Source: a virus. From it: 64,000 nt of DNA. The stretch's first letter is position 1. Every line of letters starts with the position of its first letter. Below are positions 10,652-23,846 of this stretch, piece by piece. The notes below the pieces were generated by a model. That model did no database searches. It saw only the letters and a program-made list of their open reading frames with translations, and had not been told where the DNA came from. Made by a program: the position numbers and the translations under genes. Location of the stretch: positions 1 to 64,000 of the IMG/VR virus record IMGVR_UViG_3300026116_000003; one strand, 5' to 3'.

Positions 10652-11548
10652 TTAGTTGAGCAAGAGTTCATACGCCCGCGTGCGGAGCGTATCGTTGCGG
10701 CTCAAGACTGACTCAAACCGATTGATTTCCGGAGCAGTCAAGTCCGTGTGGCGATGCACGCGGTGGTGCGTCACGTGCTCCGTAACCGCGTTGAGCGCAT
10801 CCCAGCGGCTGCGCCCTTGATTGCCGTCGCCGAAGACGAACAGCTCCAGCATATTCTCGCGCTGGTTCTCGGTGCGCGTCGAGTCTCCAGGCATCAGCTT
10901 GCCGAGAAACTCCCTGCACTCCGGCAACGTCATCCGCACTTGCGCGAGATGGACGAATTGCTTCTGGACGATATCAATCTGCTCTTTCGCCGACGCCAGG
11001 AAGATAGTCTTCGCGGCCGCGTAGCGGATGTTCTGGCGCTCGGTATGCGACACCCACAAGTCGCTCGACAACTCCCGAGTAGTCATCCCGTTCTTGCAAG
11101 TCAAGCGCTCCATGAAGAGCTGCGACTTGCGCGGCGTTCCGCCATCCCACCCGTCGACCGAGTGAATAAAGACGTTCGTAATATCGCCCTTCTCCCGGAT
11201 GTTCTTGGGGAAAGAGATATCTTGCTTGAGCTTGATGAACGCGAAGGCGCGAGAGCGCTCCGGCAGGAAGCCGGCGCGAACCACCGTCCCGTCTATCGAC
11301 TCTGCAAACTCGTATTGAGATTGCAAGAACTGCCGGGGGTCGCTTGGCGGGTAATCTTCCCCGACAATCCCCAGCGGCGCTTTCGTATCGCTCCGGTAGA
11401 GGAGCTTCTTCCGCAGCGCCTGGATTCCAGTAGCGGTCCCCGAGATGGTATCCGCTTCCGGTTGCCAGTCCAAGTCCGCCAGTTTTAGCGTCTCTTCAAA
11501 GCTCGACGCCGCCGCTACACCGACCGTTTCAATTACTGATGTATTCAT
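10652..11548 (-). CDS. DUF932 (phage/plasmid-like TIGR03299) protein
   Basis: 298 aa with the DUF932 layout: N-terminal TLKLADLDWQPEADTI, then LGIVGEDYPPSDPRQFLQ, central FIHSVDGWDGGTPRKSQLF with LTCKNGMT, and a C-terminal region with HRHTDL. The function of DUF932 is unknown; these proteins are common on phages and plasmids near replication or recombination genes. A GATAAT box 6 nt before the ATG predicts a leaderless mRNA. Confidence 0.8.
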   Translation of the reverse strand: MNTSVIETVGVAAASSFEETLKLADLDWQPEADTISGTATGIQALRKKLLYRSDTKAPLGIVGEDYPPSDPRQFLQSQYEFAESIDGTVVRAGFLPERSRAFAFIKLKQDISFPKNIREKGDITNVFIHSVDGWDGGTPRKSQLFMERLTCKNGMTTRELSSDLWVSHTERQNIRYAAAKTIFLASAKEQIDIVQKQFVHLAQVRMTLPECREFLGKLMPGDSTRTENQRENMLELFVFGDGNQGRSRWDALNAVTEHVTHHRVHRHTDLTAPEINRFESVLSRNDTLRTRAYELLLN

Positions 11549-11554
11549 ATTCTT

Positions 11555-11560
11555 ATTATC
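11555..11560 (-). promoter_or_regulatory. -10 box GATAAT for the DUF932 gene
   Basis: GATAAT, then AAGAAT, then ATG: the leaderless spacing (6 nt) of the array, but without the CTAAAGTAT box. Confidence 0.45.
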
Positions 11561-11583
11561 TCGTTTAGGTTAAAGTTTTGCTC

Positions 11584-12174
11584 TCAAGAATACATCCCTG
11601 GATACTCGACGCCGTCTGCTTCGTCGGCTGCGTTAGTAACGTCTTCGGCCAGCTGGCGAATCTCGTCCTTCTTGTCGTCATCCAAGACCAGACCCTCGGG
11701 CAGCGTCGCTCCTTCTTCCAGCAACTCTTCCAGGCGCTCGGCCGCTTGACGCAACGCATACGCCGCTTGGCTTCCGCGATGCGCCCGGCTCGTCTCGTCG
11801 CTCGGCGCAACGAATACTCTGACCGGCTCCAGATACTCTGGCACGTCGAGCGTATTCGCTACGTTATCCAAAGCCGAAATCGCTTCTTGCAGCTGGTCTC
11901 CCTTATCTCCGTTCTGGAACCCTTCCGGCAAGTTGTCATACCAGTCCTGGAGCTCGTCCCGTAGCGTCTCAAACTCGGAGATGGCGTCAGGAATTACCGA
12001 CGTCACCGACGTGGTATACATAGCTGTCAACATAGCCTTGAATTCTTCTACCGTAGGCAAGTCGATAACTATTTGATACCAGCCCTTGCGAGATGACTTG
12101 AGTCGCGCTTGCAATACCCTAAGGGCGTGCGGCCCGTAGGTCTTGTTCAATTTGATTTTGCTGATTTCGTTCAT
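11584..12174 (-). CDS. 196-aa helical protein of unknown function
   Basis: Acidic and helical, with heptad-like runs (LRQAAERLEELLEEG, DEIRQLAEDVTNAADEAD). The N-terminus is basic (MNEISKIKLNKTYGPHALRVL). No family recognised. It is preceded by a 35-nt A-rich leader (CAAACAAAAAC before CAGTATG) without a Shine-Dalgarno sequence. Confidence 0.65.
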   Translation of the reverse strand: MNEISKIKLNKTYGPHALRVLQARLKSSRKGWYQIVIDLPTVEEFKAMLTAMYTTSVTSVIPDAISEFETLRDELQDWYDNLPEGFQNGDKGDQLQEAISALDNVANTLDVPEYLEPVRVFVAPSDETSRAHRGSQAAYALRQAAERLEELLEEGATLPEGLVLDDDKKDEIRQLAEDVTNAADEADGVEYPGMYS

Positions 12175-12209
12175 ACTGTTTTTGTTTGTTTTTTGTTTGC
12201 CCTGCGAAA

Positions 12210-12791
12210 TTACTTAGCTGCCGGGATGCGGACGAATTGAGCCGGCGTGAACCGAACGGCTTGCGAGCGCAAAGAATCGTTGAAGATACCGAGCGCAAGT
12301 TCCATCTTCTCTTGATTCGCTAGGGCTCGATTGTAGGGCAAGCGAGTCCAGCCGACTGTCCCGCTCGCGGTATGCTTGACGAAATAGCGAGTTGTCCAGC
12401 CGACGTCTTTGAATTCGACCTCGATTGCATCGCCTACTTTCAAGTCAAACAGGCCGTTCTCGCTGGCGATATTCTGCCGCGCTTGCTTGCGGGCAAACTC
12501 GCTTGAGCGACGCTTTTCCTTCAAGTCCATTGCTTCGACTTGCGCCGCGTGGACCGTTGCGCTAGCGACGTTCCCCAGCACTGTCAACATGCGGAAAGGA
12601 ACGGTCCAGAGTCCCTTCGATTCCCCTTCTGGCATTACTTCAGCGACTTGATGCTGGATGGAGGGGAGCCCGAACTTGGCGAATTTGCGCCCGCGTTCAA
12701 TCGTCTTGAGCCGAACCACGACTCCAGTAACTTGACCGCGACGCCCGTTAAACCGCACTCTTGCACCGACTTTGATTTCGTTTTTTGTCAT
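12210..12791 (-). CDS. 193-aa protein with SH3/KOW-like beta-barrel segments
   Basis: Two segments read like small beta barrels: IKVGARVRFNGRRGQVTGVV at the N-terminus and LKVGDAIEVEFKDVGWTTRY in the middle, separated by a helix (AAQVEAMDLKEKRRSSEFA). Such repeats often bind nucleic acid or ribosomal partners, but no family is assigned. It has a class-1 promoter 5 nt before the ATG. Confidence 0.65.
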   Translation of the reverse strand: MTKNEIKVGARVRFNGRRGQVTGVVVRLKTIERGRKFAKFGLPSIQHQVAEVMPEGESKGLWTVPFRMLTVLGNVASATVHAAQVEAMDLKEKRRSSEFARKQARQNIASENGLFDLKVGDAIEVEFKDVGWTTRYFVKHTASGTVGWTRLPYNRALANQEKMELALGIFNDSLRSQAVRFTPAQFVRIPAAK

Positions 12792-12796
12792 ACTAA

Positions 12797-12825
12797 GTTA
12801 TCGACGCCCTGTGGAAATACTTTAG
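12797..12825 (-). promoter_or_regulatory. class-1 leaderless promoter
   Basis: CTAAAGTAT (12817-12825), N14, GATAAC (12797-12802), 5 nt, ATG at 12791. The TAA stop of the gene upstream lies inside the CTAAAG box. Confidence 0.7.
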
Positions 12826-13163
12826 CTCTTTGTTCCGATAAAAGTTACCGGAGTCGTAAAGTGCGCTAGGGAGAGCGGATAGCGCTCTTTTCCCAAGTGC
12901 AAAAGGACTTGCTTTGCGTGGTCGAGCGCATGGGCTTGAATCTTCGGCCAGTTGCGGTCGCTGACGAACCAGCGCTTGTTTTCTTTGTCAGCGAGCGCAA
13001 AGAAGTGGTCTGGAATCAAGTTGCGCCGCGCGTCGTCTTTGCTATAGTCGCTCAACTTAGCCGGAGTCCGTCCGCTAGCTAATATACATTCGCAGCCCTT
13101 GAGCCACGTATAAACCATCCACTCGCCCGCTTCCCGATTCAGTTGTCTTATTGTTCGTTTCAT
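12822..13163 (-). CDS. 113-aa protein of unknown function
   Basis: Starts at the ATG 6 nt after a class-1 -10 box (MKRTIRQLNREAGEWMVY); longer in-frame starts run through the promoter and are rejected. Features are TWLKGCECILASGRTP, a charged middle (DYSKDDARRNLIPDHF) and a C-terminal helix (AHALDHAKQVLLHLGKE). No family recognised. Confidence 0.65.
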   Translation of the reverse strand: MKRTIRQLNREAGEWMVYTWLKGCECILASGRTPAKLSDYSKDDARRNLIPDHFFALADKENKRWFVSDRNWPKIQAHALDHAKQVLLHLGKERYPLSLAHFTTPVTFIGTKS

Positions 13164-13169
13164 ACCAGT

Positions 13170-13198
13170 ATTATCGTCAGCCCTTAGGGATACTTTAG
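13170..13198 (-). promoter_or_regulatory. class-1 leaderless promoter
   Basis: CTAAAGTAT (13190-13198), N14 with CCCTAAGGG palindrome, GATAAT (13170-13175), 6 nt, ATG at 13163. The stop of the 60-aa gene upstream (TAA, 13195-13197) lies inside the first box. Confidence 0.75.
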
Positions 13199-13377
13199 TC
13201 CAATTGAAACATATCTTTGATTGCCTCCAGGATATCGCAATCCCGTATCGGCGGCAGGTCGCCGGCGATGTAATGCTCGAAAGCGCCCTTGCGATACCAA
13301 TTGTCAAACTTCTGGCTTTTAAGCGTATCCAGTATCTTTTGAGCCACTTTGTCTTGATTCGATTTGTTTTTATTCAT
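13195..13377 (-). CDS. 60-aa protein of unknown function
   Basis: MNKNKSNQDKVAQKILDTL is followed by FDNWYRKGAFEHYIAGDLPP and a final helix (DILEAIKDMFQLD). The start is fixed by a class-1 promoter 6 nt upstream. No family recognised; the charged N-terminal helix and aromatic centre suggest a small protein-binding factor. Confidence 0.6.
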   Translation of the reverse strand: MNKNKSNQDKVAQKILDTLKSQKFDNWYRKGAFEHYIAGDLPPIRDCDILEAIKDMFQLD

Positions 13378-13383
13378 ACCAGT

Positions 13384-13412
13384 ATTATCGTCAGCCCTTA
13401 GGGATACTTTAG
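13384..13412 (-). promoter_or_regulatory. class-1 leaderless promoter
   Basis: CTAAAGTAT (13404-13412), N14, GATAAT (13384-13389), 6 nt, ATG at 13377. Box, spacer and -10 are identical to the copy at 13170-13198. Confidence 0.75.
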
Positions 13413-13801
13413 CTTTTCTTTTTGCACTCCGGCCCGATACCGGATTCGATTGATTCCGGAACCGTGAGCTTGCGACCGCAGCGGCAACATTTGCCGGCGT
13501 GCTGGATTTCAACTTTCCCGGCGAGCTCGTTCAAGTGAGACCAGATATACGCGAAGGCTACCGCGCTAGGAGCGCTTGGAGCAATCGAAGAGCGAAGTCC
13601 ATGGCGGTAATTCTCTCCGTTGAAAATCGTCCCGAGGAACGTATAGCTCGATTCGTTGTCGGGGCCCGTAAGGACTTTGACGAAGTGGGGCGACTCCGGC
13701 TTGGGCTGACGAATCTTGTAAGTAAAGCGAGTCCCGGTCTTGAGCGACGTAGCGGTAAACGTAGCGTTCCCCGCCAGCGCGAATTCTTTAATATTTATCA
13801 T
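13409..13801 (-). CDS. DUF6011-like zinc protein
   Basis: 130 aa. The C-terminus has CCRCGRKLTVPESIESG then IGPECKKKS, the DUF6011 type of zinc motif (CxxCGRxLxxxxSxxxGIGPxC), common in phage proteins of unknown function. The N-terminal 90 residues (FTATSLKTGTRFTYKIRQP) are a beta-rich domain that such proteins often carry. Class-1 promoter 5 nt before the ATG; the TAA stop lies in the next promoter. Confidence 0.75.
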   Translation of the reverse strand: MINIKEFALAGNATFTATSLKTGTRFTYKIRQPKPESPHFVKVLTGPDNESSYTFLGTIFNGENYRHGLRSSIAPSAPSAVAFAYIWSHLNELAGKVEIQHAGKCCRCGRKLTVPESIESGIGPECKKKS

Positions 13802-13806
13802 ACAAG

Positions 13807-13835
13807 TATATCGTCAGCCCTTAGGGATACTTTAG
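13807..13835 (-). promoter_or_regulatory. class-1 leaderless promoter
   Basis: CTAAAGTAT (13827-13835), N14 with CCCTAAGGG, GATATA (13807-13812), 5 nt, ATG at 13801. Confidence 0.7.
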
Positions 13836-14593
13836 CTGACTAACTTCATTTCAGAAGGCTTGGTCCCCGGTGCGAATCGGACTTCACTTGCGAAGCTGGC
13901 TTTTAGCGCTTTCATCGCTTCAGCTTGCTTGACGCGAAGAGCCACGATTTTCTCCCATTGCCCGACTGTGAACGTCTCGCCCTTGTAGGTGAGCTTGCCG
14001 TTCTCTTCGACGCGAAACCCCTCTGGCGTCGAGTATTCCGACAACCAGCTCTGCTGAGTAAGTTGCTTGACGAATTCCTTGCTAATAGGGGCGGCGATGA
14101 ACGTCCGATAGCGAGCTTCTGTTGCCGCTTTGATTTGCTCGACCGAGCGCTCGTGTTGAGCGACGCCGACGATTTCCCGAATCTTCTCTAGCGCTTTGGC
14201 TTTCTGCTTTGCGTCGAGCCCGAGCTCCCGGCCGTTGCCGATTTTCAGCCACTTAGTATCGCCGTAATCGCCGATAACGAGCTTCCAGCCAGTGCAATGC
14301 CCACTGGACCACTTGCTTGAGCCCGTATACATATTCTCAATTCGAACGCGAACACCGAGCGCCCTAGTCCCGTCCGTAGCCGGGTCGAGTTGCCGCAAGA
14401 CCGCGAGCTCGGCTACATTTTGCTCAATTTGCGCTTGAGCGCGGGAAGCCAGTTCTTGCTCGTGCTTTACGATACGCTCGGAGGGTTCGATACCGTTCAT
14501 CATTCCAGCTTCAATCGCGTCTTTGTTGATATCGTTGAATTCGGTACAGAACTGCGTGGACTTTTCGACTTTGATATTTTGATTCGTTGTCAT
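13832..14593 (-). CDS. 253-aa protein of unknown function
   Basis: Helical N-terminus (EQELASRAQAQIEQNVAELA), a central beta segment (RVRIENMYTGSSKWSSGH, then WKLVIGDYGDTKWLKIGNG) and a long helical C-terminal half. No family recognised. Its class-1 promoter lies 33 nt upstream rather than 6, and the leader is A-rich (AAAAAAACAAAATCAAAAT) without a Shine-Dalgarno sequence. Confidence 0.65.
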   Translation of the reverse strand: MTTNQNIKVEKSTQFCTEFNDINKDAIEAGMMNGIEPSERIVKHEQELASRAQAQIEQNVAELAVLRQLDPATDGTRALGVRVRIENMYTGSSKWSSGHCTGWKLVIGDYGDTKWLKIGNGRELGLDAKQKAKALEKIREIVGVAQHERSVEQIKAATEARYRTFIAAPISKEFVKQLTQQSWLSEYSTPEGFRVEENGKLTYKGETFTVGQWEKIVALRVKQAEAMKALKASFASEVRFAPGTKPSEMKLVS

Positions 14594-14626
14594 ATTTTGA
14601 TTTTGTTTTTTTGCCCTTGTAAGAGA

Positions 14627-14655
14627 GTTATCGTCAGAGTAGGGAAATACTTTAG
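14627..14655 (-). promoter_or_regulatory. class-1 promoter with A-rich leader
   Basis: CTAAAGTAT (14647-14655), N14, GATAAC (14627-14632). The ATG is 33 nt downstream, so this transcript has a short leader. Confidence 0.65.
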
Positions 14656-14656
14656 C

Positions 14657-14854
14657 TCAAACTTTAGAAACTCGAACGAACGCCAGCCCGTAAGAGCTAG
14701 AGTCTTGAGCGATATCGTTGTGCTTCGCCCAAGCTCTCAAAGCTTCCAGCGTGAATAATGAACCCGCGTATTGCTTCGACGTTGCTTCAACCGTTAGCTC
14801 AGTCGTCTCGTATCCGACCGCCGTTACCGTTACTTTGAATTTGTTCGTTTTCAT
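14657..14854 (-). CDS. 65-aa small beta/alpha protein
   Basis: MKTNKFKVTVTAVGYETTEL, then a short helix with the aromatic core YAGSLFTLEALRAWA, then YGLAFVRVSKV. A strand-helix-strand mini-domain of unknown function. It is led by one of two duplicated promoter/leader modules (see 14855-14990). Confidence 0.6.
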   Translation of the reverse strand: MKTNKFKVTVTAVGYETTELTVEATSKQYAGSLFTLEALRAWAKHNDIAQDSSSYGLAFVRVSKV

Positions 14855-14990
14855 ACTCCCCTAATAGCAAGCTCGATACCACTACTGTATTATCTCTAAC
14901 ACGTTGAGTTTAAGCCAAACCTTAAATCGACTCTTTCCCTAGTGTCCCAAATCGAGATAGACACTGTCTCAAATTTGGACTGGAGCTTCT
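14855..14990 (-). repeat. duplicated promoter/leader module, copy 1
   Basis: The stretch next to the gene (AGTAGTGGTATCGAGCTTGC, then TATTAGGGGAGTATG) is almost identical to that at 17445-17575. It contains GATAAT (14889-14894), TTAAACTCAA and TTTGGCTTAA further upstream, and an AGTGTC...GACACT inverted repeat near 14941-14966. The mRNA would have a leader of about 30 nt with GGGGAG close to the ATG. Confidence 0.6.
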
Positions 14991-15018
14991 TTCGCGTAGC
15001 GTCTCGCTTCGGAAAGAC

Positions 15019-15093
15019 GTCCTAATCCGTCAGGATTGCACGCCAGGACCGTTTGGATTTGCTTTTGAGTGTCAATATAGCGGCCTGCTAGGG
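15019..15093 (-). promoter_or_regulatory. class-2 repeat element
   Basis: Minus direction: CCCTAGCAGGCCGCTATATT, GACACTCAAAAGC, then a stem GTCCT/AGGAC (15045-15049 with 15019-15023) with AATCCTGACGG in the loop. TATATT at 15074-15079 is the -10 candidate. It lies directly after the stop of the 166-aa gene and would transcribe towards the 65-aa gene. Confidence 0.5.
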
Positions 15094-15100
15094 TAACGTC

Positions 15101-15601
15101 CTATAACTTAAAGCTCAAAGCGTAGCGAGTCGCTACTTCGTTCGGCTCGTAGAAGTGGCCCTCGGCTGCGGCTTGAGATACGTCTTGCCAGAGGAAGTCC
15201 GGCGGCTTAGGGGCGAGCCATTCCATCCCGAGCGTCGAGACGAAAGCCGGGAACGTCCCGGTAGAGAAGTCTACTATCTCGTTCGTATCCGGCAACGCAA
15301 TCCAGACATGCATCTCGGGGATTCCTCCGGACGCCATAGCGAGTATTGAGTTGAAGTCCGTCGGGCTCCACTTGAAAGCGAAGTGCGTCCCGCGCACGCC
15401 GTCGTCGAGATGCTTGGGGACGATTTCCCATTGCATCGTCCCCGCTTGCAGGACGGGGCGATAGAAGCGCGGGTAACGGCTCAAGACTTCCATCCCAATC
15501 TTCGCTAAGTAAGCGCAAGCGCGGTGCGGTTCGATATCCGCGTGGCGCTCTTTGAAGAGCCGCTGGACCAGCTCAAAGATTCGTTGACGAGCTTCGTTCA
15601 T
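15101..15601 (-). CDS. 166-aa protein with transglutaminase-like HxW...D motif
   Basis: The centre reads GIPEMHVWIALPDTNEIVDF, resembling the His/Asp part of transglutaminase-like or NlpC-type folds (HVW then D); a cysteine at HRACAYLAK could complete a triad, but this is speculative. The N-terminus is helical (EARQRIFELVQRLFKERHA). The start overlaps the stop of the 155-aa gene as ATGA. Confidence 0.6.
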   Translation of the reverse strand: MNEARQRIFELVQRLFKERHADIEPHRACAYLAKIGMEVLSRYPRFYRPVLQAGTMQWEIVPKHLDDGVRGTHFAFKWSPTDFNSILAMASGGIPEMHVWIALPDTNEIVDFSTGTFPAFVSTLGMEWLAPKPPDFLWQDVSQAAAEGHFYEPNEVATRYALSFKL

Positions 15602-16065
15602 ATCCCTGCCTTTAGCTTGAGCTTTTCCAGCGCAGCTCTCGCTTTAACTTTGATTTGCCCTTCCCATTCGGTATCCTGCCGCCCGAGCGTCAGGCCGTGG
15701 TATGCGTCGAGCAAGTCCTTCAGCGCCTGCCAATCTTCGCTCGCTCGCTCGTCTCTCTTGCTTCGTCGCTTGTCGCAATCGCAAGCAACTACGTGCCCGT
15801 GTTTGTCGCACCAGTGCGTCGGTCGTTTGGGGTGGCAATCTAAACTTCCGTCAATCCGATAGTCTTGCGGCAAGTAATCTTCGGTCTCAATCCACTGGCG
15901 AATTGCTTTCGCTTCTTCCGCGCTAAAGTAAGCCTCTATCGGCCCGCGGCGAAAGAGCAGTGCGTCTCTTCGCTCTTTCGTAATCGTGTGCCCGTGGACT
16001 AGCAATCGCCCAGCTTCCGTTGCGTTGAGGTCTCGCACCAGTTTGTCTCTTGTATTGATACTCAT
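15598..16065 (-). CDS. 155-aa protein with a His/Cys cluster
   Basis: A central cluster DCHPKRPTHWCDKHGHVVAC could bind one or two metals. Helical flanks (AEEAKAIRQWIETEDYLP; ALKDLLDAYHGLTLG) surround it. No family recognised. Coupled by ATGA to the 166-aa gene downstream and one base from the zinc-ribbon gene upstream. Confidence 0.6.
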   Translation of the reverse strand: MSINTRDKLVRDLNATEAGRLLVHGHTITKERRDALLFRRGPIEAYFSAEEAKAIRQWIETEDYLPQDYRIDGSLDCHPKRPTHWCDKHGHVVACDCDKRRSKRDERASEDWQALKDLLDAYHGLTLGRQDTEWEGQIKVKARAALEKLKLKAGI

Positions 16066-16066
16066 A

Positions 16067-16375
16067 TCAGTAATCTCCAGTCGGTTCGTTGCGCCCCATG
16101 ACTTCGTTGTAATATCCCATCGGGTCGGCTTCTCGCGTGCAACTATCGCAGTGGTATCCGTGCGCTTTTTGATACGACGAGCGCAAGCGAGATTTGCACG
16201 TCGGGCACAATAGCGGATGATTTTCAGGAGGAAGTCCGTTCGTCTCTTTCTCTACTTTCGGGATTCCAGTGGCGCAAGCTTTGCACTTCCCGGCGTGCTC
16301 TCTAGCGTATTTCTTCGACGTAAGAGCACCGCACGAACACCGGACCGTAAACTGCTTGAATTGAAAGTTGCTCAT
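16067..16375 (-). CDS. 102-aa double zinc-ribbon protein
   Basis: Two Cys4-type ribbons: CSCG...CKAC near residues 13-34 and CPTC...CDSC near residues 57-79. Such small ribbon proteins often bind nucleic acid or RNA polymerase. No catalytic domain. The start overlaps the stop of the DUF2786 gene as ATGA. Confidence 0.7.
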   Translation of the reverse strand: MSNFQFKQFTVRCSCGALTSKKYAREHAGKCKACATGIPKVEKETNGLPPENHPLLCPTCKSRLRSSYQKAHGYHCDSCTREADPMGYYNEVMGRNEPTGDY

Positions 16376-17085
16376 ATTCCAATCCTCCCATTCGCTTTGC
16401 CGCTGCCGACTTGATTGAGGCGAATCTGCTGCCCCTTAGCTCGCCCGAAAGCGTAAGCCGAGTTGCTGACTTGTTGCGCCCGAGCTTTCGAGCGAATCAA
16501 TACGGGGAAGTCTTGCGCCACGCGCTTCGATATCAGAGCGTCTTTATTGACGACAATCAGCGCCCAGCAACTCGCTTCCTTCGGAGTCAGCTTCGCTTCT
16601 TCGCGCCGGTTCACTTCGATAATTCCGTCGCAGAGCCCGCGAAAGACTCCGTTCTTGTTTGCGGCGCAACTGACCATCCCGTTTTTCTCGGCGTGGTAAT
16701 ACGTCGAGGGAAAGACTTTCTCCAGATAGGGGAAGAGCTCCCGGCAGATGGCGACGTCCGTCGCTTCTCCGATAAAGATAGCCTTCGTGCCACTGATGAT
16801 AACTTGAACGCCGAAGCACTGGCGCAGCACGCGATAAATCCACGTATGGTAGGGCTTTTGAGCGCTCGTCTTTATCTGGATATCGGCGCGGTCGATTTCA
16901 ATCGACGAGCCAGCAGAACGACCGGCCGCCATATCAATCGACGCCAGTTCAATCCCGTGCTTCATGGCCAGCTCTTTCGCTTTGCCCATCGCCGCTTCCA
17001 TCTCGCCTTGCGAAGCGTTGCCGTGAGACAGCGCGAGGCACTTGCGAATCTTTTCAATCACCGCCGAGTTCATTTGATTTGTCAT
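16372..17085 (-). CDS. DUF2786 domain protein
   Basis: 237 aa. The N-terminus has the DUF2786 helix pair IRKCLALSHGNASQGEMEAA, then KAKELAMKHGIELASI. A middle domain (HTWIYRVLRQCFGVQVIISG) follows, then a basic C-terminus (IRSKARAQQVSNSAYAFGRA). Function unknown; widespread in phages. Its class-1 promoter is 32 nt upstream with an A-rich leader (GAAACAAAAAAAACAAG). Confidence 0.8.
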   Translation of the reverse strand: MTNQMNSAVIEKIRKCLALSHGNASQGEMEAAMGKAKELAMKHGIELASIDMAAGRSAGSSIEIDRADIQIKTSAQKPYHTWIYRVLRQCFGVQVIISGTKAIFIGEATDVAICRELFPYLEKVFPSTYYHAEKNGMVSCAANKNGVFRGLCDGIIEVNRREEAKLTPKEASCWALIVVNKDALISKRVAQDFPVLIRSKARAQQVSNSAYAFGRAKGQQIRLNQVGSGKANGRIGI

Positions 17086-17117
17086 AACTTGTTTTTTTTG
17101 TTTCGCCCTGTGGAAAG

Positions 17118-17146
17118 TATATCGTCAGCCCTTAGGGATACTTTAG
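17118..17146 (-). promoter_or_regulatory. class-1 promoter with A-rich leader
   Basis: CTAAAGTAT (17138-17146), N14 with CCCTAAGGG, GATATA (17118-17123); ATG 33 nt downstream at 17085. The TGA stop of the 98-aa gene abuts the first box. Confidence 0.65.
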
Positions 17147-17147
17147 C

Positions 17148-17444
17148 TCAAATCGAGAAATCAATTACGACGCTCGCAACTGTCGCAACCACAACCGTGA
17201 ACTTTACCCACCAGTGCGATTGATTCGCTACGCTCGCTCCGCCGCGGAACGCCGCGTAGTGCTCGCCCTCGTCGACTAACACTGCGCCGGGAACGGCCGC
17301 GATTACTTGAGCCGCGTAGCTTTCCGCGCTACCGCCGTGACGATAGTAGAACCCGTGGCGAGCAGTAAAGACGCCATTCCGCAAGCTTATTGAATCCGCC
17401 GATATTAGTTCCTCGATTTGCTTTATTGTCATTTTGTTTTTCAT
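17148..17444 (-). CDS. 98-aa protein with C-terminal membrane span
   Basis: The soluble N-terminus (MKNKMTIKQIEELISADSIS, then FYYRHGGSAESYAAQVI) is followed by a hydrophobic C-terminal segment (WWVKFTVVVATVASVVIDFS) that could anchor the protein. No family recognised. Led by duplicated leader module copy 2. Confidence 0.6.
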   Translation of the reverse strand: MKNKMTIKQIEELISADSISLRNGVFTARHGFYYRHGGSAESYAAQVIAAVPGAVLVDEGEHYAAFRGGASVANQSHWWVKFTVVVATVASVVIDFSI

Positions 17445-17575
17445 ACTCCCCTAATAGCAAGCTCGATACCACTACTGTATTATCTCTAAGTGCTTGAGTT
17501 TAAGCCAAACCCTAAATTGAAGATTCCCCTAGTGTCTCGCTCCTAGATAGACAGTGTCCCGTTTCGAGTCAAAAC
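17445..17575 (-). repeat. duplicated promoter/leader module, copy 2
   Basis: Near-identical to 14855-14990 over the gene-proximal ~75 nt, more diverged further out, where the CCTAGTGTC and TAGACAGTGTC half-sites persist. GATAAT lies at 17479-17484, about 34 nt before the ATG. Confidence 0.6.
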
Positions 17576-17847
17576 CCCCGAGTTTGCCCGAAAGTTCCCC
17601 ACTTGCTGATAAATTCCAGGTCCAGGAGGACTTGCTTCGTTATCGGGCTCACCGCAGGTTCTGCCGGAACGCTAGCCAGGGCGCGTGAACGCACGCTCGC
17701 TTGACGTTGCTCGACGAGCGCCGGGATTGACGCTAGGTTGGTCGAGACGTAGAGCAAACAAGCGAGAGCCAGCCAGAACGTCTTGAGACTCGCTACCGCT
17801 GGCGTCGGTCCAACCAGCACGTCGAATTCGAAAGCGTCATTGTTCAT
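17569..17847 (-). CDS. 92-aa protein with one membrane span
   Basis: Acidic N-terminus (MNNDAFEFDVLVGPTPAVAS) then a hydrophobic span (FWLALACLLYVSTNLASIPAL) and an Arg-rich segment (VEQRQASVRSRALASVP). No signal peptidase site is obvious. A GATTTT box lies 6 nt before the ATG but no CTAAAGTAT box, so promoter assignment is weak. Confidence 0.5.
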   Translation of the reverse strand: MNNDAFEFDVLVGPTPAVASLKTFWLALACLLYVSTNLASIPALVEQRQASVRSRALASVPAEPAVSPITKQVLLDLEFISKWGTFGQTRGF

Positions 17848-17865
17848 ACTGGTAAAATCGCTAAA

Positions 17866-18057
17866 TCAATGAGCCGAAGCTACATACCACTTGTTATCTA
17901 CGCCGAGCACAATTTGAAACTTTCCCTTGTGAGAGACGAAAACAGCCGGCGGCATTCCGCAGGGGCGAGGACGAAGCTCTACAATCGCCGCCGTCAAAGG
18001 CACGCCATTTTCAATTTCGACTTGCACTAAATCACCGACTTTTAAGTTTTTCTTCAT
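17866..18057 (-). CDS. 63-aa beta-rich protein
   Basis: MKKNLKVGDLVQVEIENG, then VFVSHKGKFQIVLGVDNKWY reads as a small SH3-like barrel. Start fixed by the class-1 promoter 6 nt upstream. Function unknown. Confidence 0.6.
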   Translation of the reverse strand: MKKNLKVGDLVQVEIENGVPLTAAIVELRPRPCGMPPAVFVSHKGKFQIVLGVDNKWYVASAH

Positions 18058-18063
18058 ACTAGA

Positions 18064-18092
18064 GTTATCGTCAGCCCTTAGGGATACTTTAG
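18064..18092 (-). promoter_or_regulatory. class-1 leaderless promoter
   Basis: CTAAAGTAT (18084-18092), N14 with CCCTAAGGG, GATAAC (18064-18069), 6 nt, ATG at 18057. Confidence 0.75.
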
Positions 18093-18099
18093 CTTTATC

Positions 18100-18489
18100 T
18101 CAAAGCTTTGCAGCCGCAAGCACTTCAGCCCGGAGCTTAGCCGCGCAGGGAGCGCAGTAGCCGTGAGAGACGAAGCTCCCAAGCGCCTTGCTGCGCTCTT
18201 TGTTATCGCAAGCGCAACAGAGCCAGAGCATAATCTCTTTGCCACGACAAGCAGCTTCGCGGACGAGCGCCAGCGCCGTCAAGTCCGTAATCTTTACTAG
18301 CTCGCTCGTTGAGCACCGAGTCCAGTCTCCGCCGCTAACGGTAAATCCGGCCGGAGCGCCCGTATAGTGCAAGCGCGGGCGGATTTCAGTTTTCGTCCCG
18401 TCCAAGTCCCAAATATTGTAGCCGACGCCAGGAGCGGTCGATTCCAGAGACTTTACCGCCGCCGCAAGTTTGATTGTCATATTCTTCAT
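18100..18489 (-). CDS. 129-aa protein with C-terminal Cys cluster
   Basis: The N-terminal 90 residues are mixed alpha/beta (VGYNIWDLDGTKTEIRPRL). The C-terminus carries WLCCACDNKERSK and SHGYCAPCAAKL, a likely Cys4 zinc site. No family recognised. Class-1 promoter 6 nt upstream. Confidence 0.65.
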   Translation of the reverse strand: MKNMTIKLAAAVKSLESTAPGVGYNIWDLDGTKTEIRPRLHYTGAPAGFTVSGGDWTRCSTSELVKITDLTALALVREAACRGKEIMLWLCCACDNKERSKALGSFVSHGYCAPCAAKLRAEVLAAAKL

Positions 18490-18495
18490 ACCCTA

Positions 18496-18524
18496 GTTAT
18501 CGACGCCCTTAGAGAATACTTTAG
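18496..18524 (-). promoter_or_regulatory. class-1 leaderless promoter
   Basis: CTAAAGTAT (18516-18524), N14, GATAAC (18496-18501), 6 nt, ATG at 18489. The TAA stop of the 52-aa gene upstream (18521-18523) lies in the first box. Confidence 0.7.
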
Positions 18525-18679
18525 GGGCGATTGATATATCCACTGGGGTTGCGCTTAGCGTCTTCCAGCAAGAGAGCCAGGAGGAACAAAGTATCAGTCT
18601 CGCTTTGCGCCATACCGAGCGACTCCGCGCGCTTCCGGTCAGCGATTAGCGAGTCAATTATTTCATCAAAAGTTTTCAT
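18521..18679 (-). CDS. 52-aa helical protein
   Basis: The frame starts MKTFDEIIDSLIADRKRAES, continues with LFLLALLLEDAKRNPSGY and ends INRP. Its ATG overlaps the TGA of the next gene upstream. A short two-helix protein of unknown function. Confidence 0.55.
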   Translation of the reverse strand: MKTFDEIIDSLIADRKRAESLGMAQSETDTLFLLALLLEDAKRNPSGYINRP

Positions 18680-18858
18680 ATCATTCCGTTCGCGTCGAGC
18701 TCGTCATAGAGCGCTTTCGTCTTCGTTACCATATTATTGTCTCGCTTGAGCCGGCGGAGCTGAACCAAGACGTCGATTACTTCCTCGTCAGTTATCGGCT
18801 CGCCCAAATACTTTGCCATAATTTGCTTCGCCGTGAGTTTCTTTGTTTTGCTTTTCAT
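18676..18858 (-). CDS. 60-aa helical protein
   Basis: MKSKTKKLTAKQIMAKYLGE, then DEEVIDVLVQLRRLKRDNN and a final helix (ALYDELDANGMI). The ATG at 18858 is inside the end of the 81-aa gene. No family recognised. Confidence 0.55.
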   Translation of the reverse strand: MKSKTKKLTAKQIMAKYLGEPITDEEVIDVLVQLRRLKRDNNMVTKTKALYDELDANGMI

Positions 18859-19100
18859 AAAATTGTAACGCACGGAGCGAAGTGAAAATCCCGCATTGCT
18901 TGTTCGATAGTCATCCCTTCAGCTTCGCCCGTAACAAAGTCTCCATACATCAATTCGGCTGCGTCTGCCCGAGTCTCGAAGTCTCCAGTATATTGCTCTT
19001 CGTGCTTTAGTTTTTTGCAGTCCTTGCAATCAGCAGCGTGGACAATAAAGACGCCTTTGGATTGGTCCCGCAAATTAGGTCCGAAAATTGTCAGTTTCAT
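18855..19100 (-). CDS. 81-aa protein of unknown function
   Basis: MKLTIFGPNLRDQSKGVFIV, then ADCKDCKKLKHEEQY (a CxxC pair), TGDFETRADAAELMYGD and a C-terminal FAPCVTIL. This could be a small redox- or zinc-type fold. It overlaps its neighbours on both sides by 4 nt. Confidence 0.55.
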   Translation of the reverse strand: MKLTIFGPNLRDQSKGVFIVHAADCKDCKKLKHEEQYTGDFETRADAAELMYGDFVTGEAEGMTIEQAMRDFHFAPCVTIL

Positions 19101-19393
19101 AAATCTTGCAAGTAGGGGTTGGGTTTGTAGGTCGGTTCGGGCTTGACGTTGAGCTTTTTGGGCATCATGGCGAGCGCTCGTTCCATCGGAGTTTGCTTTA
19201 CGTCGAAGTGAATCAAGACCGGTTGGTAAACGAAGACTCCACGACGACCGGCGTAAGCGCGCACGTCTTCGATACTTTCGAAGCGAGTTGCCTTTTCGTG
19301 ATTGCGTATCGACTTGAATCCAGTCGGCGGGACGTCTACTAAATACACGTTTTTCTTCTCAAACCAAATTACCCATTTGCTATCAATTTTCAT
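19097..19393 (-). CDS. 98-aa protein of unknown function
   Basis: MKIDSKWVIWFEKKNVYLVD and RFESIEDVRAYAGRRGVFVY suggest an alpha/beta fold; the tail is Pro/Lys-rich (KPEPTYKPNPYLQDL). It is the first gene of a coupled set of four (19393 to 18521) behind one class-1 promoter. Confidence 0.6.
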   Translation of the reverse strand: MKIDSKWVIWFEKKNVYLVDVPPTGFKSIRNHEKATRFESIEDVRAYAGRRGVFVYQPVLIHFDVKQTPMERALAMMPKKLNVKPEPTYKPNPYLQDL

Positions 19394-19398
19394 ACTGG

Positions 19399-19427
19399 TA
19401 TATCGACGCCCTGTGGAAATACTTTAG
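19399..19427 (-). promoter_or_regulatory. class-1 leaderless promoter
   Basis: CTAAAGTAT (19419-19427), N14, GATATA (19399-19404), 5 nt, ATG at 19393. Confidence 0.7.
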
Positions 19428-19428
19428 C

Positions 19429-19710
19429 TCAAGCTTTGAAATACTTTGCGATATCGGGAAAGTCTCGCTTGAGCGACGCTACAGCGAGCCGAGCGATTTC
19501 ATTATCAACTTTGCGAATCTCCGCGTTGACTTGCTTGCAAGTTGCGTCAGCCATAAGCTTTATCGCTATGGGCGTGCAACCGTCGTATTTCCCGAAAGAT
19601 GCTTGCTTGCTCAAAGCGTCTCGGATTTGGACAGTATTCCAGCCGGCGTTTAGAAGCTCGCCGATTGCTTTTTGCAGTCTCGCTACCACCGTTTCGTTTA
19701 TCTCGTTCAT
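19429..19710 (-). CDS. 93-aa helical protein
   Basis: Predominantly helical (ETVVARLQKAIGELLNAGWN; LMADATCKQVNAEIRKVDNE). Ends FPDIAKYFKA. No family recognised. Its upstream promoter copy has lost the -10 box (see 19711-19740). Confidence 0.6.
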   Translation of the reverse strand: MNEINETVVARLQKAIGELLNAGWNTVQIRDALSKQASFGKYDGCTPIAIKLMADATCKQVNAEIRKVDNEIARLAVASLKRDFPDIAKYFKA

Positions 19711-19740
19711 ACTAGAGTTCAGCCCTTAGGGATACTTTAG
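19711..19740 (-). promoter_or_regulatory. class-1 promoter copy lacking the -10 box
   Basis: CTAAAGTAT (19732-19740) and CCCTAAGGGCTGA are intact, but compared with 18064-18092 the five bases CGATA are deleted, leaving CTGAACTCTAGT before the ATG. The promoter is probably weak or dead. Confidence 0.6.
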
Positions 19741-19741
19741 C

Positions 19742-19924
19742 TCAATCTTGAAGAGCGATTGCAGCCGCGCGGGCAAGCTCGACGCCCTTGCTAATCCGGT
19801 CCCGTTCGATTAAGAGCAACGGCTTGAGCATCGTCGATACTCGCGGCGACTTGATTAAGCGGTCGAGACGGTCCCAATCGGCTCGGATAGAGCGAAACTC
19901 TGCATGGGCTTGTAAATAAGTCAT
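19742..19924 (-). CDS. 60-aa helical protein
   Basis: MTYLQAHAEFRSIRADWDRL, then LIKSPRVSTMLKPLLLIERD and a short final helix. No family recognised. It follows the 60-aa coiled-coil gene after 6 nt and probably shares its promoter. Confidence 0.5.
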   Translation of the reverse strand: MTYLQAHAEFRSIRADWDRLDRLIKSPRVSTMLKPLLLIERDRISKGVELARAAAIALQD

Positions 19925-19930
19925 AAAAGC

Positions 19931-20113
19931 TTAGTTTTCAAAACATTGGACCCACTTAACGACTTGAGACGTAGAGCTACGGATTGTGCTCAAGACGCGC
20001 CTGGCGCGGCTCGGCTCGATATCCATCGGGAGCAATCCTTCAAGCCGCTCGATTGCTTGTTTCATTTGCGTCAGCTCTTCCTGGATTCTATCGTATTCGA
20101 TTGATTTATTCAT
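19931..20113 (-). CDS. 60-aa coiled-coil protein
   Basis: Starts at the ATG 6 nt after the class-1 -10 box (MNKSIEYDRIQEELTQMKQA), with a heptad run (QMKQAIERLEGLL) then a basic second helix. A TTG two codons earlier is in frame but lies in the promoter. Function unknown. Confidence 0.55.
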   Translation of the reverse strand: MNKSIEYDRIQEELTQMKQAIERLEGLLPMDIEPSRARRVLSTIRSSTSQVVKWVQCFEN

Positions 20114-20119
20114 ACTCAA

Positions 20120-20148
20120 GTTATCGACGCCCTTAGGGAATACTTTAG
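20120..20148 (-). promoter_or_regulatory. class-1 leaderless promoter
   Basis: CTAAAGTAT (20140-20148), N14, GATAAC (20120-20125), 6 nt, ATG at 20113. The stop of the 80-aa gene (TAA) lies in the first box. Confidence 0.75.
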
Positions 20149-20387
20149 CTCAAAGTTGCAAAGACTTCAGAGATAACATAAGCCCAGCCCCGTCGATTGA
20201 ACTGCTGACGAATCCCGTTCCCTACCATTACATTATACGGTTCGAGATTTGCGCCGGCATCTTTGACAAGCTTTAAGATAATCCAGCGTCCGTTGTCGCT
20301 CGATATTCGATAGAATTGGCATTCCACGATTCTGTGGTCGATTTTGAATTGCCCGACTTGCGATTGACTTGTTGCTATATATTTCAT
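20145..20387 (-). CDS. 80-aa beta-rich protein
   Basis: MKYIATSQSQVGQFKIDHRI, then ECQFYRISSDNGRWIILKLV, and IRQQFNRRGWAYVISEVFA at the end. Alternating strands suggest a small barrel or sheet. No family recognised. Class-1 promoter 6 nt upstream. Confidence 0.6.
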   Translation of the reverse strand: MKYIATSQSQVGQFKIDHRIVECQFYRISSDNGRWIILKLVKDAGANLEPYNVMVGNGIRQQFNRRGWAYVISEVFATLS

Positions 20388-20393
20388 ACTAGA

Positions 20394-20422
20394 GTTATCG
20401 ACGCCCTTAGGGAATACTTTAG
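20394..20422 (-). promoter_or_regulatory. class-1 leaderless promoter, rightmost copy
   Basis: CTAAAGTAT (20414-20422), N14, GATAAC (20394-20399), 6 nt, ATG at 20387. Last copy of the array before the primase gene. Confidence 0.75.
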
Positions 20423-20429
20423 CCCTTAT

Positions 20430-21296
20430 TTACAGTCCAGCAACTTTGCGAATCAATCGAAGCTCTTTCTTCGAAGACTCTGCCGGGTCTTTCGCGTCAA
20501 TTACGATATTCTCCGTTACCCCAGGGAAGCAAGCGAGCAAGTCCGCCAGCTCCCGCGCCCGCGCTTGAGCGTCGAGCGACGAGTCCAGGCAGATGTAACG
20601 TCTCGGAAACCCAGCCAGCGTCTTTACTTGCTCGCTTGTCCAGGCGAGCCCAAAGAGCGCTCCAGCGCCGGGACCGACGGCCCAAGCGTCAATAGGGCCC
20701 TCGACGATTACGACGGCGTGGCGGCACCAATCCGCTCCATAAATAACGTGTTTGAGATTGATACTCGCTTCCGTCTCGGGCGCAGACAAGTATCGCTTCG
20801 CTGCACGGTCTCCGATTGCGCGAGTTGTCCAGCTAACGCGGACTCGCTTGCTCAATATCGGAATGTAGATTCGCCAAGCGAGTCGAGCGTCTATCCCGAT
20901 TCCCTCGACTTGCCAGAGACGCTGAATCTCTTCGGGGTCAAATCCACGACGCTTGAGATAGTCCCGGTGGCAGCGTTGCAACGGGCCCCGTCCGCCGGGC
21001 TCTTTCAATCTCCCAGACCACTCCGCTTTCTCCGGCTCTTTCCCTAGCTCGTAATCGTGGAGAAACTCCCGGATGGTTGACGACGAGACTCCGAGCTTGA
21101 GCAACGTCTCCCAAACCGGATGCCAGCGACATTTCCAGCAAGCGAAAAACTTGTCAGAGAGATTGAACCCCAAGTGGTAATTTTGCGAGCCGCAAAAGGG
21201 ACAAACTCTAACTTGCAGCCAGCCAGTCCGGCAATGGTTGTGTCCCGACTCCAGATAGTCGAGTCCAGCGCCAGCTAGTAATTCCTGGATAGTCAT
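20430..21296 (-). CDS. DnaG-like primase (zinc ribbon plus Toprim)
   Basis: 288 aa from the ATG at 21296 (MTIQELLAGAG). Zinc ribbon C32-x2-C35 ... C53-x2-C56 (VCPFCGSQ, FFACWKC) recognises template, followed by a linker and a Toprim domain: VVIVEGPIDAW (E199), YICLDSSLDA (D238) and IDAKDPAE. The usual Toprim DxD pair is DSS here, so the second metal ligand is altered. At 288 aa it is shorter than DnaG and lacks its C-terminal helicase-binding domain, as in many phage primases. It would supply primers for the DnaB-like helicase/polymerase set. Confidence 0.8.
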   Translation of the reverse strand: MTIQELLAGAGLDYLESGHNHCRTGWLQVRVCPFCGSQNYHLGFNLSDKFFACWKCRWHPVWETLLKLGVSSSTIREFLHDYELGKEPEKAEWSGRLKEPGGRGPLQRCHRDYLKRRGFDPEEIQRLWQVEGIGIDARLAWRIYIPILSKRVRVSWTTRAIGDRAAKRYLSAPETEASINLKHVIYGADWCRHAVVIVEGPIDAWAVGPGAGALFGLAWTSEQVKTLAGFPRRYICLDSSLDAQARARELADLLACFPGVTENIVIDAKDPAESSKKELRLIRKVAGL

Positions 21297-21448
21297 TTCC
21301 TCAGGATATATTGGCGCATCAACTTGACGATAGCCTCCTGCATCGTCTGCCCCTTGCGAGCGCAAGCCGCCTTGAATTGGTTCTTGGTATCAATCGGGAT
21401 ACCCTTGAAAAACAAAACACCTTTGTGGTGCTGCAGTTCCGATTTCAT
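21293..21448 (-). CDS. 51-aa ribbon-helix-helix regulator
   Basis: The frame MKSELQHHKGVLFFKGIPID, then KNQFKAACARKGQTMQEAIV, then a second helix ending YILRK has the Arc/CopG ribbon-helix-helix pattern: one strand followed by two helices. It is wedged between the SNF2 helicase and primase genes with ATGA overlaps on both sides. A related C-terminal half is found on the plus strand at 23749-23838. Likely a small DNA-binding repressor; its operator is unknown, but the palindrome at 23619-23643 is a candidate. Confidence 0.65.
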   Translation of the reverse strand: MKSELQHHKGVLFFKGIPIDTKNQFKAACARKGQTMQEAIVKLMRQYILRK

Positions 21449-22797
21449 AATTTCTCTGTTCGTATTATCTCCAGCAAGTCTTCGAAGATATTGAAGCTCT
21501 GAGCGTCTTCTTCTCCGTTCAATACTGCGTCTAGGATATCCGACTTCTTCCGCAGAATTCGCACCAGCTTCTCTTCGATAGTCCCTAACGCCGTCAAGTA
21601 ATGAATGACGACTTTCTTCTTTTGCCCGATACGATGGATACGGTCCTCGCCCTGCAGCAAGTCGCCGGGACTCCAAGGGAAGTCCAGAGCCGCCGCGTTG
21701 CTGGCCGCATGCAAAGTAATTCCGACTCCGGCTGCTTTCCAATTTCCCAACAGCAGATTGACGCGACGATTGGATTGGAACTTCCGTACGGTCTCGTCCC
21801 GCTTGCGCCCGACTACGCGGCCATCGATAACGACGCTGGACGGGAATCTCTCTTTCAATTGGTCGATGACAAAAGTATGCATGGTCAACGCCACGAGTTT
21901 CTCTCCGGGGTGCGCGATAAAGAATTCCTCAATCCATTGCTTGGTCCATTCCATTTTCAACTTGGCTACGAGCCGCAACAGATATCCGACTTTGACGAGC
22001 GCCAGACTCTTCTTCGCCCGCATCGCTCGGGATGGGCTGGTCTCTTTGAGCCAGACCAGAAACTCGTTATCAGCCCTACGATATTCCTTGTAAGACGCCA
22101 GCCGGAACGGAACGATACGCCGAGTCTTGGCCGGCAGCTCCAGCAGCACGTCTTTCTTGAGCCGGCGAATCATGCACTCCGAGCGGAGAATCCGGTTCAG
22201 TTGTTTCAAGTTCGTTGCGCCATCGTATCTCCAGCCCCACGGAGTATATCGCGGCTTGCAATACGCCCAAGCATACTCTTCCCGGGATGGAAACAAATCG
22301 GGGCGGATGATTCGCAAGATGGACCAGAGCTCAATCGGCCGGTTCGTCAACGGAGTCCCGCTCAGCCCGATAACCGAAGAAGCTTTCTTGACCAGCCTCC
22401 GGCTGGCTCTGGTTCGTCTCGCTCTCGGCGTCTTCAGGTAATGCGCTTCGTCAAAGATTACCGTTTGCGGTTTAGCTTTCAATAGAACCGGCAACCACGA
22501 TTCCAGGATATCGTAATTGATAATAACTACAGAGCCGGGAAGCGGCTGGCGTCGCTTCATCTGGCCTTCCAAGACTTCCGTCCGCATATTGAAGTGGATG
22601 GCCGCTTCCGACTGCCAAGTATATTTGACTGAAGCGGGGACTACGATAACGACTGGCCGTCGGCGTGGCGTCTTGAGAATCCAATAGAGCGATTGAATAG
22701 TCTTGCCCAATCCCATTTCATCAGCCAGCAAAGCTCGCCCTTTGAACGCTCGGATTTGACGAGCGCCAGCCAACTGAAATGGTTTAAGCTTGGTCAT
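21445..22797 (-). CDS. SNF2-family DEAH helicase (SMARCAL1/RapA-like)
   Basis: 450 aa. Motif I is DEMGLGKT, motif Ia VVPASVKYTW, motif II DEAH, motif III LSGTPLTN, motif IV-V GVGITLHAASNA, motif VI QGEDRIHRIGQ: a complete SNF2 ATPase. It lacks extra DNA-binding domains. SNF2 proteins translocate on double-stranded DNA and remodel forks or displace proteins; phage versions usually sit in replication/recombination modules, as here. ATGA overlaps couple it to the gene on each side. Confidence 0.9.
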   Translation of the reverse strand: MTKLKPFQLAGARQIRAFKGRALLADEMGLGKTIQSLYWILKTPRRRPVVIVVPASVKYTWQSEAAIHFNMRTEVLEGQMKRRQPLPGSVVIINYDILESWLPVLLKAKPQTVIFDEAHYLKTPRARRTRASRRLVKKASSVIGLSGTPLTNRPIELWSILRIIRPDLFPSREEYAWAYCKPRYTPWGWRYDGATNLKQLNRILRSECMIRRLKKDVLLELPAKTRRIVPFRLASYKEYRRADNEFLVWLKETSPSRAMRAKKSLALVKVGYLLRLVAKLKMEWTKQWIEEFFIAHPGEKLVALTMHTFVIDQLKERFPSSVVIDGRVVGRKRDETVRKFQSNRRVNLLLGNWKAAGVGITLHAASNAAALDFPWSPGDLLQGEDRIHRIGQKKKVVIHYLTALGTIEEKLVRILRKKSDILDAVLNGEEDAQSFNIFEDLLEIIRTEKL

Positions 22798-23036
22798 TTC
22801 GCATAATAAGCCGAGTCTAATTTTCCTTCGCGTTCTAATTCTTCAAGGTCTTTTTTGTCGTTGAAAAACTCGAAGCCCGTAATGTTTTGAGACATTGTAT
22901 GCATGTGACGAAACCGCTTATATTCGCCCGGCTTCCACGATTGATGCCGATACCACGATACGTCGGGGATGGTTTTCGTAAAAGGAACTTCGGTCAAGTT
23001 CTCTACTTGCGGAGGAGTATCTTTGTTTGTTTTCAT
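22794..23036 (-). CDS. 80-aa protein of unknown function
   Basis: MKTNKDTPPQVENLTEVPFT, then DVSWYRHQSWKPGEYKRFRH, FFNDKKDLEELEREGKLDSA at the end. Rich in aromatic and charged residues; no family recognised. ATG at 23036 chosen because it lies 5 nt after the sigma-like gene stop; overlaps the helicase start by 4 nt. Confidence 0.6.
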   Translation of the reverse strand: MKTNKDTPPQVENLTEVPFTKTIPDVSWYRHQSWKPGEYKRFRHMHTMSQNITGFEFFNDKKDLEELEREGKLDSAYYAK

Positions 23037-23040
23037 AAAT

Positions 23041-23610
23041 TTAATGAGCCCACACTTCCCAAAACCGCAATTCAATCTCTCGTTGCGCTCGCTCGATGCG
23101 TCGCTTGTCCAGGCCTTTGCTCTGGAGATATTCTTTGACTCTCGCCAGCAGTTGCTTCGGCGTCATCTTGCTCCCCAAGTCCAGACTTTCTCCGCGACGC
23201 GGGCCAGCAGCAATCCGCCCCACTTCCAGAATCTCCGCCGGGGTCTCCAGCAGGAGACTGATTATCTCTTGAGCGTCTTCCGACAAGCCACCAATCATAT
23301 CCATAATCTCGCTACGTTGCTCCGGCGCGAATCCAGTCAACTCGTCGTTCATCTCCGTGCAGATTAGCGGGTCTCTCGTCCGCTTCGTTATCCAGCTGCG
23401 CAAGCTCGTCCAGACCTTAAAGTAGCACCAGGAAGAGAACTTAGAACCGCGGCGGCTATCGTAAGTTTGACAAGCGAGCATGAAGGCCAGATAAGCCTCG
23501 CTCCGCGACTCTTCGAAAGTTACTGGACAAGCTTGCGCGACTTTCCACGCCAGACTGCAGAGCATTTTTTCCACTTTGGGAAATTCAATTTGCGGGTCGA
23601 TTTTTGTCAT
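23041..23610 (-). CDS. sigma-70-like RNA polymerase sigma factor
   Basis: 189 aa. The first 80 residues match sigma region 2: EFPKVEKMLCSLAWKVAQAC, then EAYLAFMLACQTYDSRRG and KFSSWCYFKVWTSLRSWITK, as in region 2.1-2.4 (core binding and -10 recognition). The C-terminal part (MTPKQLLARVKEYLQSKG) could be a reduced region 4. It is a candidate to recognise the repeated class-1 promoters, whose boxes depart from TTGACA/TATAAT. The promoter region overlaps a 25-bp palindrome, suggesting repression. Confidence 0.65.
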   Translation of the reverse strand: MTKIDPQIEFPKVEKMLCSLAWKVAQACPVTFEESRSEAYLAFMLACQTYDSRRGSKFSSWCYFKVWTSLRSWITKRTRDPLICTEMNDELTGFAPEQRSEIMDMIGGLSEDAQEIISLLLETPAEILEVGRIAAGPRRGESLDLGSKMTPKQLLARVKEYLQSKGLDKRRIERAQREIELRFWEVWAH

Positions 23611-23618
23611 TTGTCGTT

Positions 23619-23643
23619 GGTTAGAAAGTATACCTTTCTAACC
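23619..23643. promoter_or_regulatory. operator palindrome at the sigma-like gene promoter
   Basis: GGTTAGAAAG (23619-23628) and CTTTCTAACC (23634-23643) are perfect inverted repeats around TATAC. On the minus strand TATACT inside it can serve as a -10 box with TTGACA about 14 nt upstream, so a bound repressor would block the sigma-like gene. It begins 8 nt from the start codon. Confidence 0.65.
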
Positions 23644-23748
23644 CGGTGTCAACTCTCAAAAGATAATAAGACGTTAGGTTTATATTTACGTATTAAAAGA
23701 CCCAAGAACTTTAGAGATTCGTTATGTAGGAGCCCACCGGAACTTAAA

Positions 23749-23839: not shown

Positions 23840-23846
23840 AAGCAAC

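Follow-up and report, generated by a model that had tools for sequence, protein, structure and literature searches.

Organization of the repeated element

What kind of signal stands, in near-identical form, before one small gene after another in this virus, which RNA polymerase would read it, and where would the resulting messages begin? The window, that is, the whole stretch of DNA analyzed here, comprises bases 1 to 64000 of a 74135-base IMG/VR virus contig (labelled G000 in genome comparisons). The contig derives from a tailed phage: it encodes portal, head, tape-measure, and tail proteins as well as helicases, a primase, a polymerase-A type enzyme, and a clamp with its loader. Protein searches for its host gave scattered best matches, with 28 to 38% identity over most of their length (TerL to Cellulophaga, capsid to Brevundimonas, portal to Halorubrum, and helicase to Rhodothermus). 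No tRNA, which was sought as a host clue, occurs within the window, no phage DNA matching the window was found, and a GTDB scan for the host returned two single matches only, which were judged to be chance.

An earlier, sequence-only reading had described an array of promoters of the form CTAAAGTAT-N14-GATAAY that would produce leaderless mRNAs. Scanning the window for this motif at up to 3 mismatches returned 13 matches versus 1.49 expected, a number reached by 0 of 100 shuffles. Twelve are intact CTAAAGTAT-N14-GATA copies (chance expectation, about 0.6 to 1.5), one at each of the 12 coordinates originally given and all on the minus strand; no plus-strand copy was found in the window, and the reversed control gave 0. 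The copies, located by sequence scan, are as follows.

7636-7664, minus strand: isolated sigma28-type copy (GATAGA) without a nearby ATG, conserved in the relative G001
12797-12825, minus strand: sigma28-type promoter, GATAAC ending 5 nt upstream of the ATG at 12791, 193-aa ORF
13170-13198, minus strand: sigma28-type promoter, 113-aa ORF, cassette only in G000
13384-13412, minus strand: sigma28-type promoter, 60-aa ORF
13807-13835, minus strand: sigma28-type promoter (GATATA), 130-aa ORF
14627-14655, minus strand: sigma28-type promoter, 33-nt A-rich leader, 253-aa ORF (start at 14593)
17118-17146, minus strand: sigma28-type promoter (GATATA), 32-nt A-rich leader, DUF2786 ORF (start at 17085)
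18064-18092, minus strand: sigma28-type promoter, 63-aa ORF
18496-18524, minus strand: sigma28-type promoter, 129-aa ORF
19399-19427, minus strand: sigma28-type promoter (GATATA), 98-aa ORF
19712-19740, minus strand: thirteenth, damaged copy with a 5-bp CGATA deletion; intact in G001 ahead of a homologous 93-aa ORF
20120-20148, minus strand: sigma28-type promoter, 60-aa ORF, cassette only in G000
20394-20422, minus strand: sigma28-type promoter, 80-aa ORF, cassette only in G000

The constant 14-nt distance between the boxes, originally counted from a longer first box, corresponds to an 11-nt spacer and is kept in all intact copies. Some details of the original description needed adjustment. 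The second box is GATAAY in eight copies, GATATA in three (13807, 17118, and 19399), and GATAGA in one (7636). It does end 5 to 6 nt upstream of an ATG, in nine copies rather than the eight first counted (12797, 13170, 13384, 13807, 18064, 18496, 19399, 20120, and 20394).

Match to the sigma28 promoter consensus

Promoters recognized by the flagellar sigma factor, sigma28 (FliA/SigD), have the published consensus TAAAGTTT-N11-GCCGATAA (PMC2859248). The window copies read TAAAGTAT-N11-G(A/T)CGATAA, with 2 to 3 mismatches in 16 to that consensus and a spacer of exactly 11 nt. A scan with that consensus itself, at N11 and allowing no more than 3 mismatches in the 16 positions, found 12 sites in G000. 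Dinucleotide shuffles gave 0.60 (2 at most), and spacers of 8, 9, 10, 12, 13, and 14 nt gave 0 to 3 sites each. The -35 octamer is TAAAGTAT in all window copies, a 7/8 match to TAAAGTTT, and the -10 octamer is GACGATAA or GTCGATAA (7/8 versus GCCGATAA) in most copies, with an extra mismatch in four. The boxes had been said to differ from TTGACA/TATAAT, and this was borne out: sigma70-type pairs at 16 to 18 nt occur at the level of chance in positions 11500 to 24000 (7 versus 8.1 expected), and none lies at an array copy. The element is thus not sigma70-like, as proposed, but it belongs to a known class rather than being the unusual phage promoter originally envisaged. An archaeal TATA element was also considered and was rejected, as neither the position of the box nor GATAA suits it.

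We consider it likely, from comparison of the sequences, that the array consists of sigma28-class (FliA/SigD/WhiG) promoters read by a host motility-type sigma factor, with leaderless starts at nine copies. The putative promoter would comprise the -35 element TAAAGTAT, an 11-nt spacer, and the -10 element G(A/T)CGATAA, with one copy per small accessory gene. RNA polymerase carrying the host motility-type sigma factor probably binds these copies, and we infer that the array is transcribed in this way. All window copies share two departures from the E. coli consensus (TAAAGTAT in the first octamer and GACGATAA/GTCGATAA in the second, i.e., TTT to TAT and GCC to GAC/GTC), so that the reader could be a related but different sigma factor.

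Conservation in relatives and cassette exchange

A 75-kb relative (G001) carries 14 copies; given how closely it is related to G000, the copies in the two are not independent. A diverged relative, represented by a 31-kb fragment (G002), has 7 sites at up to 2 mismatches as well as further, weaker ones. Two of them show 0 mismatches to the consensus core, and the -35 element there is TAAAGTTT. G002 retains TAAAGT..-N11-GCCGATA and the position next to the start codon, whereas the spacer sequence differs. On these comparisons, the conserved part of the element is both boxes and their spacing.

In the alignment of G000 and G001, three promoter-linked ORFs are found only in G000 and several only in G001, and the alignment breaks at or beside promoter copies. 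Units of promoter plus ORF are, on this evidence, cassettes gained or lost at the promoter, and the array evolves by unit exchange. The damaged copy at 19712-19740 and its intact G001 homologue form a natural loss-of-promoter pair.

Near-identical copies at gene junctions, located where cassettes recombine, could also be junction repeats without promoter function or operator- or stoperator-like sites for a phage repressor. The word CCCTAAGGG, which had been reported to recur in the spacer and is palindromic, would suit an operator, and it does occur in seven intact copies. However, it is absent from five intact copies and from G002, and yet the boxes and the 14-nt spacing persist; in the aligned window copies, the position of the CCCTAAGGG/AGGGC word varies by 1 nt against boxes whose spacing is constant. 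CCCTAAGGG as an operator was rejected because it is not conserved. It is, moreover, hard to explain otherwise why the copies match a known promoter consensus with its exact spacer, and we regard the operator and junction-repeat readings as very unlikely.

Predicted leaderless transcripts

If the elements are sigma28-class promoters, the start codons lie close to the expected transcription start. A start codon is found 12 to 14 nt from the C of CGATA at 9/12 copies in G000, 12/14 in G001, and 7/7 in G002, versus a background of 1 to 2%. In the E. coli aer promoter, whose start site has been mapped, CGA occupies positions -11 to -9 and +1 lies 6 bp past the octamer; applied to the nine G000 copies, this geometry predicts a 5' leader of 0 to 2 nt. 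Initiation 0 to 2 nt ahead of the A of ATG would yield leaderless mRNAs, and each of the small genes would be transcribed separately by host sigma28 polymerase as such a message. Across the phage genes, Shine-Dalgarno-like motifs precede 9 of 89 (background, 10.5%), and a signal no higher than background fits leaderless initiation. The central claim of the sequence-only reading, a promoter array with leaderless mRNAs, is therefore well supported by sequence comparison, the start positions being predicted.

A phage-encoded sigma-like protein and a second motif

The boxes had also been taken to hint at a dedicated sigma factor, and the phage does encode a candidate.

23041-23610, minus strand: phage-encoded sigma-like protein of 189 aa, Sigma70_r2 (Pfam and PDB profile)

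Its match to sigma-70 region 2 in Pfam has an E value of 4.2e-5 and 23.7 bits, versus a cutoff of 24, and scored 25.4 bits in a second search; the PDB profile matches listed for it are sigma factors. The AlphaFold model has a pLDDT of 72, and agreement with Foldseek is weak (E values of at least 0.07). As possible counterparts of region 4, that model has C-terminal helices at residues 151-164 and 169-187, for which Pfam gave no match.

A second motif, AGATAATA, occurs 16 times across the 74 kb of the contig, where 1.6 would be expected. Several of these sites lie 5 to 8 nt ahead of a start codon, and no conserved -35 element accompanies the motif. Sites are located as follows.

1661, 6806, 7581, 10088, 11561, 14895, 17485, 21470, and 59639, minus strand: AGATAATA sites
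23661, 23833, and 25824, plus strand: AGATAATA sites

Relatives of the sigma-like protein in other phages share about 42 to 49% identity with it. Ten loci encoding this family contain 46 AGATAATA sites versus 3.8 expected, 25 of them directly ahead of a start codon, whereas 35 other loci of similar G+C content contain 6 versus 11.9 expected, none in a leaderless position. The sigma-bearing records G015, G016, and G017 have no sigma28-type sites, and no phage sigma homologue was detected in the array-bearing records G002, G009 to G012, and G018, a comparison in which several records are fragments and related phages may share a host.

Could the phage sigma nevertheless be the dedicated reader of the CTAAAG/CGATA array? 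The protein combines sigma-70 region 2 with a helical C-terminal domain some 80 aa long, and GATAA is common to the array motif and AGATAATA. The double dissociation between sigma genes and sigma28-type sites argues against this, as does the association of the family with AGATAATA, and we find such a role improbable. An ECF-type promoter of the phage sigma was likewise rejected, as the sigma family occurs without the array. Because the family is associated with AGATAATA rather than with the array, host sigma28 is the likeliest array reader. In the simplest reading, the phage sigma would serve AGATAATA and a host sigma28-family factor would serve the array. The suspicion of a dedicated factor thus held insofar as a protein with sigma-70 region 2 is encoded by the phage, but the motif that accompanies its family is the second one.

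The phage sigma gene appears to be the first gene and head of a leftward operon, divergent from plus-strand genes. Directly upstream of it, beside a TTGACA, lies a near-perfect inverted repeat, GGTTAGAAAG-GTATA-CTTTCTAACC (23617-23641, minus strand), which is possibly an operator or promoter. We also observed a repeated leader of about 130 bp (14839-14971 and 17426-17558, minus strand) with AGATAATA and TTGGCT ahead of two different genes; further copies are present in G001.

Similar arrays in other virus contigs

Sigma28-type sites are numerous in several other virus contigs (28 in G008, 10 in G018, 9 in G011, 8 in G014, and 7 in G012; 0 to 1 in the reversed control). In G012, G018, G014, and most of G008, the element lies 24 to 50 nt upstream of start codons, most of which have a Shine-Dalgarno sequence. 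An element placed ahead of Shine-Dalgarno-bearing leaders is expected of a promoter and not of a ribosome-binding site.

Cluster K mycobacteriophages carry start-associated sequences (SAS), which resemble the array in being repeated, oriented elements just ahead of the ATG of many small non-structural genes (PMC3203893). The fixed short distance to the ATG and the single orientation would accommodate a translation-initiation element of that kind here. SAS, however, resembles a ribosome-binding site, is 13 bp long, and contains AGGAG, a core absent here; the aligned copies lack GGGATAGGAGCCC, the 13-bp cluster K sequence expected in ribosome-binding-site position. Two window copies stand 32 to 33 nt upstream, in other phages the element stands 24 to 50 nt ahead of Shine-Dalgarno-led starts, and two boxes at a fixed spacing are unexpected for a ribosome-binding site but would suit a promoter. 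We give a translational role the lowest probability of all the readings considered.

When IMG/VR was scanned for exact matches to CTAAAGTTT-N11-GCCGATA, at least 120 stretches were found, versus 21 singletons for the spacer-8 control; some of the single matches may be host-derived DNA within the collection. Among 111 newly fetched N11 loci, 36 have at least 2 sites, and other spacers gave counts near zero. No sigma28-type sites were found in the 50 kb examined of Ab18 and Simon (cultured relatives of G009) and of Brevundimonas phage MaInes. G014 encodes a full RpoD-like sigma factor with regions 1.2, 2, 3, and 4 (L127, 1423-2670, minus strand), and in the 153-kb contig G008, which has the 28 sites, an ORF of 365 aa (L142, 7391-8488, plus strand) matches sigma region 2 weakly, so that part of the array phages may themselves provide the factor.

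The presence of similar arrays in unrelated environmental phages suggests that many phages tie expression to the motility program of the host. As a broader proposal, to which we give somewhat less than even weight, many unrelated environmental phages may carry flagellar-sigma arrays and express accessory or early genes mainly in motile (sigma28-active) hosts, with leaderless mRNA as the output in this lineage and a second leaderless class, AGATAATA, served by the sigma factor that the phage encodes.

Comparison with known systems

The array shares both octamers, the 11-nt spacer, and the predicted start distance with known sigma28 promoters (PMC2859248), from which it differs in residing in a phage, in a tandem dozen, one per gene, and mostly without a 5' leader. 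No description of sigma28 promoters or arrays in phages was found in the literature searched, the coverage of which is incomplete. Since sigma28 is active in motile cells, we hypothesize that expression of the array genes could be restricted to, or boosted in, such cells. This would be analogous to the "lytic deferment" described for pili- and flagellotropic phages of Alphaproteobacteria with CtrA sites (PMC9437464), in which phage promoters are likewise placed under a host regulator linked to motility or the cell cycle, an arrangement that arose in several lineages; those are transcription factor sites, whereas the elements here are putative sigma-factor promoters. Repeated phage promoter classes are also a feature of Thermus phage P23-45 and of other systems with a phage-encoded sigma factor or RNA polymerase (PMC7403470).

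If the array is indeed read by sigma28, such phages would use the motility sigma factor of the host instead of the housekeeping one, infection would be coupled to motility, and the dependence of some phages on motile hosts would be explained. The arrays would also be a ready source of natural leaderless mRNAs together with their matching promoters, and TAAAGTTT-N11-GCCGATA would serve as a simple signature for finding such phages and guessing hosts with sigma28. T4 gp55 is a phage-encoded sigma system, and the phage sigma with its -10-only AGATAATA resembles T4 late logic; the array instead looks dependent on host sigma28.

Other features of the phage

The polymerase-A type enzyme is apparently split into two ORFs (2686-5416, minus strand) that match adjacent parts of phrog_17. 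A tally covering 24 to 64 kb of the window plus L071, in which individual members were not assigned, includes a response-regulator receiver domain and glycosyltransferases; the TET-associated TAGT among the latter suggests that the phage DNA may be hypermodified.
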